DNA from: Candidatus Poribacteria bacterium | GTDB taxonomy: Bacteria; Poribacteria; WGA-4E; PCPOR2b | Reading direction: 5' to 3' | Length of the DNA: 64,000 nt | Assembly: GCA_022822005.1 (NCBI GenBank) | Contig: JAJECO010000054.1 | Coordinates: 62,001 to 126,000, forward strand | Shown: piece after piece, positions 45,303 to 62,790 of the stretch | Layout: the number at the start of each line of letters is the position of its first letter | How positions within the stretch are numbered: position 1 is the first letter of the stretch | Program-made: the position numbers and the translations under genes | The notes under the pieces: model-generated | Told to the model about the DNA's origin: nothing | The model's database searches: none | The model's input: the letters and a program-made list of their open reading frames with translations, nothing else

Positions 45303-45389
45303 CTTAGCCTCCCTTTTACGTGCACTACGTTTTCTCGAGGGTTGCACAGCCACTGGTCCATTTCTAATCAGTGCAGAAAAAGCGTGGAC

Positions 45390-45486
45390 GCAAAAAAGCC
45401 CCAATACATCAAGTCGATAGAGATATGGGAGATAGCTAACAATTGGCCGTTGGGAGCAGTCCCTTTTTCTATCGTTCGCCTTTTCT
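45390..45486 (-). ncRNA. Conserved iron-locus leader or small RNA, copy 1
   Basis: These 97 bases match 55670-55767 with one substitution and one base of length difference in an A-run, while surrounding DNA is much less similar. On the minus strand the block starts AGAAAAGGCGAACG about 10 nt after the Fur-like core. It contains the small hairpin GGGA/TCCC, whose loop is CTGC here and CAGC in copy 2. It ends in a partly paired CCCATA...TATTGGGGC stem followed by TTTTTT. This layout fits an iron-regulated small RNA or an attenuating leader. No start codon with a ribosome site is conserved inside it. Confidence 0.5.
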
Positions 45487-45492
45487 TTTTTA

Positions 45493-45523
45493 ATAATGAG
45501 TCTCAATATCAATAATCGTGCAA
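45493..45523 (-). promoter_or_regulatory. Putative Fur-type operator and promoter of the heme operon
   Basis: On the minus strand, TTGCAC (45523-45518) is followed after 12 nt by TGAGACTCA (45505-45497). The wider sequence GATATTGAGACTCATTATT matches the classical 19-bp Fur consensus GATAATGATAATCATTATC at 15 positions. It precedes the conserved leader and the PepSY gene. The same arrangement is found at 55795-55821 and 62438-62463. Confidence 0.68.
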
Positions 45524-45693
45524 TTTTATTGAGCAATATCTATACTCTTAGAAATTACGTACTTCAGATTGTAATTGCCCGATTCATTGGGCATTAAGAG
45601 TTCACTTTACCCGTCTCTCTGCTTGTTCCCCATATCGGAATGCTTGGAACCACACGAGGGATAGAGGGGTAAGCATTCAACTGTGTAGGTCCT

Positions 45694-55484: not shown

Positions 55485-55669
55485 TATCTAAATCCTTATC
55501 AATATGGGCTAACAAAATGCTCATGCGTGCCAAAGATGTGCTCCAGTCTATAATTGCTGTAAGAAAGATATAAGGCGGACGGCATCTGTCCTGCTTTACG
55601 TGAACTGAATTTCCTTGACAATCGCAAATCGAGTGACTTATTCTTATAAATGCAGAAAGGGCGATGGGC

Positions 55670-55767
55670 GCAAAAAAAGCCCCAATACATCAAGTCGATA
55701 GAGATATGGGAGATAGCTAACAATTGGCCGTTGGGAGCTGTCCCTTTTTCTATCGTTCGCCTTTTCT
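55670..55767 (-). ncRNA. Conserved iron-locus leader or small RNA, copy 2
   Basis: This is the near-identical partner of 45390-45486, starting 27 nt downstream of the Fur-like core and ending GGGGC with TTTTTTT. Weak similarity continues for about 30 nt beyond the T-run (GCG, CGC, TTTCTGCA). The 98-nt core is therefore the conserved part of a longer ancestral duplication. It precedes the lipoprotein-FecA operon by about 190 nt. Confidence 0.5.
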
Positions 55768-55794
55768 GTTATTCAACCTTCGATTTAATAAAAA

Positions 55795-55821
55795 TGAGTC
55801 TCAGTCTCAATAGGTATTCAA
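55795..55821 (-). promoter_or_regulatory. Putative Fur-type operator and promoter of the FecA operon
   Basis: On the minus strand TTGAAT (55821-55816), 12 nt, then TGAGACTCA (55803-55795), with an overlapping extra ATTGAGACTGA half-site. The wider GAGACTGAGACTCATTTTT matches the 19-bp Fur consensus at 13 positions. AATAAAATTG just upstream is shared with the heme promoter. Confidence 0.62.
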
Positions 55822-60008: not shown

Positions 60009-61139
60009 TTACTCGAAACTGCTGTCTAACACCAATTTCAAGATGTCGTTCTCCAGTGTCTGCTGGACTGTGCTGACCGCATCAATGGCTGCTTGGACAG
60101 CAGCCCGTTGAGCAGTGATTGAGTCGCGGAAGGGATCCGGAATCGCACCGATGGTGTCGATGGCGGTCTGGACTTCGGTTTGGAATCTCGCGTCTAAGGC
60201 GGCATCCGCCCCGTTTACAAATTCGTTAAGTCCCTGACCATCTGCGGTGAACTTGCCCATGTAGACGTTTTGGATACCACGAATATTGTCTTGGAAGTCA
60301 CTAATCGAGTTAAAGCTAAACTGTGACTCAACAAGGGTTGTGTCCTTCTCATTGAACGGGTCGGAGATTTTACCGTTGGCGACTTCATCGGCGATGACAA
60401 TCATACCGTTGACCATCTCTTGCATTGCGTCTTTCTGTGATTGGTAAATAGTGCTGGTGTCACCGGCGTTGGCGACCTCTCCGGCATAATTTTCGCCTGA
60501 CGGAGCCCATGCGTTAGCCAGTTGAGCAGTTTTTGCTTTCAGATTCTCCGTTGTTGCGGTGAGGTATTCCAATTCGCGGGGCGTAATATCCTCAGCTTTT
60601 CGCTGGTTGCCCTCGCGGAAGAGGAGATACTCGATGGTATGGAAACCTTTCAATGTGTCTTCAAGTGCGTCGATTGAGGCTTCGGTCAACGTTTGTCCGC
60701 TGCCAAGTACCCCGTCAAGATCAACCCGATTGACGGGCCAGCTATCGAGCGCTGGGTCAAGACCCTGCGTATCGACGGGACCGAACAGAAATGCCTCGCT
60801 CTGTTCCCACGGTCTCCGCGTGGCTTTCCATGCGTTCTGTGCCAGTTCCAAATGGGCTTGATTGGGAGCCGCGTTCAACGCCTGTACAGCGCCTAATAGC
60901 TCACCTGCTTTGTTGTCCAAGTCGGTGTAGGTGGCAAGTACGACTTTGTTAGCGAAGTCGTTCAAGGTGGTGCTTGCATCAAACGCTTCAGCTTCTCCAG
61001 CGGCAGTAGTGATAGCATCGTCATCATCGTCGTCGCTGCCACAACCGGTGAGGCTGCAACCGATGAAGAAAATTGATAGGACCAGAAGCACCGATAGGGT
61101 ACAGCAAAAGAGTTTTGTTAAATACTGATTGAATCTCAT
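60009..61139 (-). CDS. Imelysin-family iron-regulated lipoprotein
   Basis: This 376-aa lipoprotein (SLTGC followed by the acidic GSDDDDDD) has an imelysin (peptidase M75/IrpA/EfeO-like) domain. The family GxHxxE motif is in KGFHTIEYLLFREG. NAWKATRRPWEQSEAFLFGPVDTQGLDP and WPVNRVDLDGVLG are the other typical segments. Imelysin proteins are iron-regulated surface proteins thought to take part in iron uptake. AAGGAG lies at good spacing before the ATG. It follows the porin gene by 30 nt, and both lie under the Fur-like site at 62438-62446. Confidence 0.92.
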   Translation of the reverse strand: MRFNQYLTKLFCCTLSVLLVLSIFFIGCSLTGCGSDDDDDDAITTAAGEAEAFDASTTLNDFANKVVLATYTDLDNKAGELLGAVQALNAAPNQAHLELAQNAWKATRRPWEQSEAFLFGPVDTQGLDPALDSWPVNRVDLDGVLGSGQTLTEASIDALEDTLKGFHTIEYLLFREGNQRKAEDITPRELEYLTATTENLKAKTAQLANAWAPSGENYAGEVANAGDTSTIYQSQKDAMQEMVNGMIVIADEVANGKISDPFNEKDTTLVESQFSFNSISDFQDNIRGIQNVYMGKFTADGQGLNEFVNGADAALDARFQTEVQTAIDTIGAIPDPFRDSITAQRAAVQAAIDAVSTVQQTLENDILKLVLDSSFE

Positions 61140-61169: not shown

Positions 61170-62411
61170 TTAGTATTGAAACCCGAAGCCGAGTGCGAAG
61201 GTATGTTCGTCCTCAAAATCGGTGTCCAATATGGGTATGGTGTCCAATATCTCTACGGGTGTGGACCCCAATGTTCGAGCGGAGTAATGTCCCTTAAAGA
61301 CAAGTTGTGGGTGTGGGTGATAATTGAGACCGAGTATCCACGTCTGACGCTCCCAACGCGGATTATCAAAGATGTCTCCCTTCACCTCAGCCATTGTATC
61401 GTAGTTATCGTAACGGACGAACAGGTCAAGCGCTGCCGCCGTGTTCAACGATGATTTGAAAAACGAGAGCAGGTTGTAGCCAGCTTCGAGATACCCGCCA
61501 AAGGCCTGGCTACCAACAGGTGTCCGCTTTACATTTAGGTTGTTTGAAAGATTGCGATTGGTTTTGGAGATAAGTTCCGAATTTTCGAGGGTTCCGTAAA
61601 GGAACATCCCGCGAACCTTCAACGCGCCGACCTCATAAAATCCGTGTAGATCAACAATTGAGACGTGGGCATCTTCTCGGAAGTCCGGTTTAGGACGGTT
61701 GTCCGCGCTGTCTCCGTAGTAACCAGAGACACCGAGGACTGCTCCGTCCATGACTGTGTAATCGACACGACCGACAAGCGCAAAATCTTCGGCATTGGCG
61801 GCCTCAAAACGCAGTTGATGACCGCTGGCGATCCAACGGCGCGAGCTGAAGCCGGTGGAGTCCAAGCCGTTGACGACTTGCGCCTGATAGCTGAGCGCGC
61901 CAGCTTTGCCGAATAGCTCAATCCCATTTTCATGCCAGATGGTTGGAATCAGGTTAGATTCAGATTCGGGGCGGGTGGTTGTGAAGTAGTGTTGGGGACG
62001 ATGCCGCTTGGCGGTTAAGCCGACCGGCACGATGATGTGACCTATCCGTAGGTTGAGCGTTGGGCGAAACTCAAAGACTGCGGCGAGTTTCTCAACGATG
62101 ACCTCACCGCCTTTTTCGACTTCCATCTCGAATTCACCAAACTCCTCAAATTTATCAAACTCCATTGTGATGCCGGTCCCACCGTGCTCAAACTCGAGTT
62201 CCGATTCAAGACGGATGGTATCGTTAATCTGGAGTTTTGGCGCGATGACGAACCGTTCAACGTCAATGTGAGCCCGTCGCTCTGGATCGGTTTCCCAATA
62301 GAAATTAGCGTAATTGATTACTCCGTAGCCGGAGACACTGAACCGTTTGGATTCAGCCGGTGCAGCTTGAACCGTTAGGAGTAGAAGCAGAAGATAACAG
62401 AAGATTCGCAA
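61170..62411 (-). CDS. Outer-membrane porin-like protein in the imelysin operon
   Basis: This 413-aa exported beta-barrel protein has a signal peptide ending QAAPAES. Resemblance to phosphate-selective porin O/P-type barrels is seen in FVIAPKLQINDTIRLESELEFEH, RIGHIIVPVGLTAKRH and NGIELFGKAGALSYQAQVVNGL. The C-terminus is FALGFGFQY with the aromatic end residue. It starts with TTG 62411 with GAGAGG six nucleotides upstream. Location before imelysin and behind a Fur-like operator suggests that it admits an iron complex or a small organic acid. It is not similar in detail to the porin at 31265-32518. Confidence 0.82.
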   Translation of the reverse strand: MRIFCYLLLLLLTVQAAPAESKRFSVSGYGVINYANFYWETDPERRAHIDVERFVIAPKLQINDTIRLESELEFEHGGTGITMEFDKFEEFGEFEMEVEKGGEVIVEKLAAVFEFRPTLNLRIGHIIVPVGLTAKRHRPQHYFTTTRPESESNLIPTIWHENGIELFGKAGALSYQAQVVNGLDSTGFSSRRWIASGHQLRFEAANAEDFALVGRVDYTVMDGAVLGVSGYYGDSADNRPKPDFREDAHVSIVDLHGFYEVGALKVRGMFLYGTLENSELISKTNRNLSNNLNVKRTPVGSQAFGGYLEAGYNLLSFFKSSLNTAAALDLFVRYDNYDTMAEVKGDIFDNPRWERQTWILGLNYHPHPQLVFKGHYSARTLGSTPVEILDTIPILDTDFEDEHTFALGFGFQY

Positions 62412-62432
62412 TTCTAACCTCTCGGATTATTT

Positions 62433-62463
62433 GATACTGAGTCTCAATCGCACCTTAGTGCAA
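62433..62463 (-). promoter_or_regulatory. Putative Fur-type operator and promoter of the porin-imelysin operon
   Basis: On the minus strand TTGCAC (62463-62458), 11 nt, then TGAGACTCA (62446-62438) followed by GTATCAAATAAT. The arrangement equals that upstream of the heme and FecA operons. The TTGCAC overlaps the T-run of the terminator at 62461-62488. Confidence 0.62.
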
Positions 62464-62488
62464 AATAAAAACGGGCATATTCTGCCCG
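62461..62488 (-). terminator. Intrinsic terminator upstream of the porin gene
   Basis: On the minus strand CGGGCA (62488-62483), a GAATA loop, TGCCCG (62477-62472), then TTTTTATTTTG. It lies about 50 nt before the TTG start of the porin gene and downstream of a strong promoter, so it would end a short transcript. Confidence 0.85.
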
Positions 62489-62537
62489 ATTTGACTCTTC
62501 TAAAAACCCGATATTGAGACTCATTCGCAAGTTATTC
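62462..62537 (-). ncRNA. Candidate iron-regulated small RNA, about 75 nt
   Basis: A consensus sigma-70 promoter on the minus strand would start RNA near 62537, and the terminator at 62488-62461 would end it. The first part holds the palindromic core TGAGTCTCA (62525-62514 region), so a regulator bound there would block transcription at its start. There is no start codon with a ribosome site. It could also be an attenuated leader of the porin-imelysin operon. Confidence 0.45.
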
Positions 62538-62543
62538 TATAGT

Positions 62544-62573
62544 ATTATAAACCGCTGCAAAAACGTATGTCAA
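62544..62573 (-). promoter_or_regulatory. Consensus sigma-70 promoter
   Basis: TTGACA (62573-62568) and TATAAT (62549-62544) on the minus strand are separated by 18 nt, a perfect match to both hexamers. It points toward the small-RNA candidate and the porin gene. A Fur-like site (62530-62510, matching the 19-bp consensus at 14 positions) follows directly. Confidence 0.72.
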
Positions 62574-62599: not shown

Positions 62600-62790
62600 T
62601 AGGAGTTACGCAGTTCAGTAAGGAACAACGATCCTCCGTTCCGAGAGTCCGAGAGTTGTTCACTGCGAACTTCTTGATGGCGCGCCTATTGTAGTTGCCC
62701 AATTCATCGGGGTATCGGGGCAAGGATGCCCCTCTCACGTCCTGACGCGCAATGAATTACGCTACTACAAACTCAAGTACGTAACTCCTA
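62600..62790. mobile_element. MITE-like element with 11-bp terminal inverted repeats and target duplication
   Basis: TAGGAGTTACG at 62600-62610 and CGTAACTCCTA at 62780-62790 are perfect inverted ends of a 191-bp segment without a gene. ACAAA directly before (62595-62599) and directly after (62791-62795) is a 5-bp duplication as made by transposition. Further end-like copies (TAGGnnTTACGC) occur at 2241, 46833 and 46995. The remaining interval to 62904 shows no gene. Confidence 0.8.

Follow-up and report, generated by a model that had tools for sequence, protein, structure and literature searches.

Upstream of a gene for a porin-like protein in a sponge-associated poribacterium, a sigma-70 promoter, a Fur-like site and a hairpin with a T-run follow one another closely. 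Does this unit encode a small RNA of its own, as an initial annotation had proposed, or is it the beginning of the operon that it precedes? We examined the locus in the window (the whole stretch of DNA analyzed, 64 kb) and in related genomes. Its features, in the order of transcription, are these:

62544..62573, minus: sigma-70 promoter, TTGACA-N18-TATAAT, 12/12 match, both hexamers invariant in 6/6 genus genomes
62510..62528, minus: O1, Fur-type operator GCGAATGAGTCTCAATATC, spanning about +10 to +28, shortly after the expected start
62489..62509, minus: variable leader segment, 21 nt, from O1 to the hairpin, not conserved in the genus
62462..62488, minus: intrinsic terminator, 6-bp stem CGGGCA/TGCCCG, 5-nt loop GAATA, tail TTTTTATTTT; stem and T-run conserved, loop variable in the genus
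62433..62451, minus: O2, second Fur-type operator GCGATTGAGACTCAGTATC, ahead of the porin start
62418..62423, minus: GAGAGG, Shine-Dalgarno-like, before the TTG start
61170..62411, minus: outer-membrane porin-like protein, 413 aa, TTG start at 62411, first gene of the operon, start region conserved
60009..61139, minus: imelysin (Peptidase_M75; Pfam PF09375, E 8e-71), second gene

Three elements named in the initial annotation were recovered: the perfect promoter (62573-62544, minus), the Fur-like site at the expected transcript start (O1), and the CGGGCA/TGCCCG hairpin with its T-run (62488-62462, minus). The promoter is the single perfect instance of TTGACA-N18-TATAAT in the window, where shuffled sequences led us to expect 0.04, and it places the transcript start near 62538 on the minus strand. 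The initial annotation had also assigned the porin gene a separate Fur-like promoter. Its operator-like part was borne out as O2; however, no sigma-70-like -35/-10 pair was found in the window sequence between the hairpin and the porin gene, and inspection of the genus alignment by eye revealed no conserved promoter in that interval. Since the interval has no sigma-70-like promoter, the porin-imelysin operon is most likely transcribed from the promoter at 62573, unless a promoter of an unrecognized type is in use. Leaders of family f3 and of other poribacteria likewise carry a 12/12 or 11/12 promoter upstream of O1, with 10 to about 100 nt between the -10 hexamer and O1, and the spacing of the operator pair is steadier than the promoter-operator relation. 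In many f3 leaders (L036-L056 and others), O1 is preceded by two perfect promoters separated by about 72 bp.

When the window was searched for Fur-type palindromes with at most three mismatches, three sites were detected, including O1 (chance, 0.02). Across the 50 distinct leaders, O1 and O2 are 19-bp inverted repeats near GATAATGATAATCATTATC. The pair, 72 to 98 bp apart, was present in 71 of the 72 poribacterial porin upstream regions (drawn from two overlapping collections and including 50 distinct sequences), the exception at this spacing being L087, and neither of the porin upstream regions from other phyla (L128, L131) contained a Fur box. In family f3, O1 most often reads GATAATGAGATTCGTTATC and O2 most often GATAATGAGTCTCAATATC, near a textbook Fur box; the O1 position in other families also reads GATAATGAGATTCGTTATC. 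By position, O2 falls inside the transcribed region, ∼85 to 105 nt past the expected start; in several lineages O1 likewise lies well within the transcript. The genome encodes two PF01475 (Fur family) proteins, judged by eye to be one Fur-like and one Zur-like protein, and boxes similar to O1 and O2 also precede TonB-receptor genes. Because the boxes fit, these proteins are encoded, and related boxes precede receptor genes, Fur is the likely binder of both operators. DNA looping between them was considered and set aside: the spacings share no single helical phase. Elsewhere, inspection by eye of a homologue of the porin that belongs to a different family of the class (G066) gave one clear Fur box, without an obvious second box in tandem. 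At L008 (G000 contig C79, about 88554), a strong promoter precedes a lone Fur-type box, placed after the start, and a gene that looks nitroreductase-like by eye; no terminator was seen there.

The hairpin, CGGGCAGAATATGCCCG at 62488-62472 (minus), is followed by TTTTTATTTT, so that a GC-rich stem stands directly before a T-run. Its terminator score ranked third among the seven positive-scoring sites in 64 kb, and its fold was matched by 3 of 200 shuffles (z, -2.7). All 6 genomes of the genus have a strong hairpin with a T-run, as does one f2 genome, G012, whose stem sequence differs. The hairpin is weak (-1.7 and -1.9 kcal/mol) in G006 (g2) and G009 (the second f2 genome), and the terminator is therefore not indispensable. 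None of the 41 distinct f3 leaders, which keep both operators and the operon, has a comparable terminator; three give relaxed hairpin matches, one of them at -7.5 kcal/mol with a poor tail. Where the hairpin occurs, 20 bp separate the end of its stem from O2 in the six genus members; in the three other distinct f1/f2 leaders, the separation is 19, 22, and 23 bp. From O1 to the stem, the distance ranges from 19 to 41 bp across these nine distinct leaders.

Within the genus, the unit of promoter, O1, hairpin and O2 was present in all five other genomes. In the alignment of the six genomes, the promoter hexamers showed no pairwise difference, O1 differed at 0.070 and O2 at 0.158. The stem arms differed at 0.056 and 0.000 while the loop reached 0.360, as expected of an intrinsic terminator. 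The segment between O1 and the hairpin was the most divergent stretch measured (0.475), exceeding even the upstream sequence (0.393); the first 91 bases of the porin gene differed at 0.183. Given these differences, the promoter, operators and terminator look to be under selection, and the body of the supposed small RNA does not. Just upstream of the promoter, at 62600-62790, lies a MITE-like element with an 11-bp terminal inverted repeat (TAGGAGTTACG/CGTAACTCCTA) and no aligned counterpart in relatives; a 45-bp piece of it recurs with 78% identity at 45548-45592, close to a further Fur box.

No Pfam or NCBIfam family matched the porin-like protein, and the porin label is that of the initial annotation. 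The same protein was found in Candidatus Poribacteria assemblies, with a match in 66 of 84 phylum genomes; relatives were also seen in a Methylococcaceae assembly (48% identity) and a Chitinophagales assembly (43%). Imelysin follows the porin gene in 79 of 82 loci. Further downstream comes a gene for a 173-aa protein that matched no Pfam family, then genes for a NUDIX protein and a di-haem oxidoreductase.

Taken together, we think it probable that the unit is not a separate gene: it would be the promoter and 5' leader of a Fur-repressed porin-imelysin operon, with an internal terminator that yields an RNA of ∼75 nt as a by-product. With iron present, Fur would occupy both O1, shortly after the start, and the leader site O2, turning the operon off. 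With iron absent, Fur would leave and the strong promoter would become active; some transcripts would stop at the intrinsic terminator, giving the ∼75-nt RNA, and the remainder would pass O2 and supply porin and imelysin. The ∼75-nt RNA would then be a premature-termination product of the leader, because the promoter at 62573 is most likely that of the operon. The leader model builds on elements read from the sequences, namely, a predicted promoter, two operators and a terminator, their conservation, and an interval from hairpin to gene that lacks a sigma-70-like promoter; for the cell, we infer Fur as the binding protein, partial termination, and readthrough as the source of porin mRNA. The model is supported by the retention of promoter, O1, stem, T-run and O2 in six genus genomes while the flanks and the O1-hairpin segment diverge, by the iron-linked content of the operon (imelysin), and by a hairpin energy and score typical of a good terminator. 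Against it, a terminator of such a score could halt most polymerase, and the genus alignment revealed no antiterminator or conserved alternative pairing that would relieve it, the segment before the stem being unconserved. A leader peptide from an ATG in O1 (26 codons) was also considered and rejected, its reading frame being broken in relatives.

An independent Fur-regulated small RNA gene next to a porin gene with its own promoter, the initial reading, draws its appeal from having promoter, operator and terminator all within 110 bp. We now regard it as very unlikely: a second sigma-70-like promoter for the porin is absent, the unit is single copy in the genome, and the hairpin is gone from most relatives while promoter, operators and porin remain together. 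Sequence and conservation give good support to iron control and to a short terminated transcript, but the claimed independence from the gene fits poorly with a unit that holds the only recognizable operon promoter and an RNA body that is its least conserved part. Conservation in relatives had been proposed as a check on the unit, and its absence from relatives keeping the operon as evidence against it: all congeners keep the unit, but some operon-bearing relatives lack the terminator, so that the adverse outcome applies to the hairpin and not to the promoter and operators. The RyhB class comprises Fur-regulated trans-acting small RNAs. Compared with that class, the locus showed no transcription unit separate from its neighbor, no other sigma-70-like operon promoter being found, and no conserved target-pairing segment between O1 and the stem; nor did any of the 6 genus genomes have an Hfq match above the Pfam cut-off. 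Some known small RNAs work without Hfq. An Rfam search of the leader gave nothing at gathering score (two sub-threshold small RNA matches, E 0.39 and 0.63, were taken as chance), and no paralogue of the leader RNA was found in the genome. It is also doubtful, though less so, that the ∼75-nt attenuated transcript acts in trans in the manner of Escherichia coli ChiZ and IspZ. A terminated 5'-UTR RNA from a strong iron-controlled promoter is suitable raw material, and 5'-UTR RNAs of this type, ending at terminators, exist and can acquire functions (PMC7815308). However, 47% of compared positions in the candidate pairing segment differ between congeners, and the Hfq and Rfam results weigh against this reading as well.

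Two further possibilities concern O2. The near-fixed distance between terminator and O2 suggests a stronger form of the leader model, in which Fur on O2 would halt polymerase that had leaked past O1 and hold its active site on the T-run; the hairpin would be efficient only when Fur is bound and otherwise mostly read through, so that the iron repressor would switch the terminator on and off. The front edge of polymerase reaches about as far ahead as O2 lies from the stem, and the 19 to 23 bp from stem end to O2 vary less than the 19 to 41 bp from O1 to the stem. An O1 deep within the transcript in several lineages agrees with such a roadblock, and blocking of polymerase by repressors within transcribed regions is established for PurR, GalR, CcpA, CodY, and LacI (PMC4132739, PMC10310618). 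Yet the 41 distinct f3 leaders keep both operators without a strong terminator, and the hairpin is known from nine distinct leaders only, six of them close relatives, so that the fixed distance may reflect shared ancestry. We put this gated terminator forward tentatively, as an unlikely proposal. In the literature searched, there was no paper joining Fur, roadblock and intrinsic terminator, and none on Poribacteria and a Fur box; if the proposal is true, repression and termination are coupled in a way not described there. Alternatively, the operators might act as RNA, their copies pairing in the mRNA as a long leader helix. The full leader folds better than 200 of 200 shuffles by way of an O1:O2 helix, and in a shuffle across all species 0 of 2,000 equaled the native pairing. 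But any two near-palindromes are able to pair, and the effect vanishes within clades, where native pairing did not surpass that of shuffles (fractions of shuffles that equaled it: f1/f2, 0.72; genus, 1.0; f3, 0.08), which makes a functional helix extremely improbable.

Elsewhere in the window, two copies of a structured RNA element were observed:

45374-45487, minus: structured RNA element, ∼115 nt, copy 1, downstream of a Fur-type box at about 45492-45510
55653-55768, minus: structured RNA element, ∼115 nt, copy 2, downstream of a Fur-type box at about 55790-55808

The copies (at 45487 and 55768) are near-identical, and both lie upstream of TonB-receptor genes. A covariance model of the 5' part of the element had matches in 29 of 81 phylum genomes, from four families. 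In its outer modelled helix, pairs change type in many sequences (compensatory changes); the covariation score, counted on an alignment fitted to the model's own structure with a model built from similarity-found sequences, was 0.272 versus 0.121 in shuffles, was reached by 0 of 500 of them, and was lost on sliding the partner. For most full-length copies, the prediction includes a closing stem (CAGAAAAGGC/GCCTTTTCTG). At the loci inspected, the element usually has a heme-oxygenase-like gene (HmuQ/IsdG type) on one side and a TonB-receptor gene on the other; elsewhere, it accompanies a receptor gene and a PepSY-like gene, so labeled by eye with no family match. An Rfam search returned no match. 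The modeling makes the element a candidate new structured RNA family linked to heme/iron uptake, possibly a riboswitch.

For an uncultured phylum, the leader model recasts a supposed small RNA gene as a regulatory layout in which a leader with two Fur-type operators in tandem is retained throughout an order and a lineage-specific terminator lies a nearly constant distance from O2. Its parts are mostly ordinary, although their combination is unusual. It shares a Fur-type box and a terminator with the RyhB class and with IsrR of staphylococci, which is reported to be a Fur-regulated trans-acting small RNA (PMC9410917); unlike these RNAs, it is probably not an independent unit and has no conserved pairing segment. 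As with IspZ and ChiZ (PMC7815308), premature termination would give a short leader RNA, with an intrinsic terminator as in IspZ, but here the body is unconserved, Hfq does not rise above the cut-off and there is no known target. Like Fur-repressed iron-uptake operons, the locus has a 19-bp near-palindrome that matches GATAATGAGnCTCATTATC, sits at a sigma-70 promoter and precedes imelysin; unlike those with one box over the promoter, it has two predicted operators in or at the start of the leader, 72 to 98 bp apart. Repressor sites downstream of the start also recall the roadblock systems of PurR, GalR, CcpA, CodY, and LacI (PMC4132739, PMC10310618), from which this leader differs in that the repressor would be Fur and that, in the genus, an intrinsic terminator stands just upstream of the second site.
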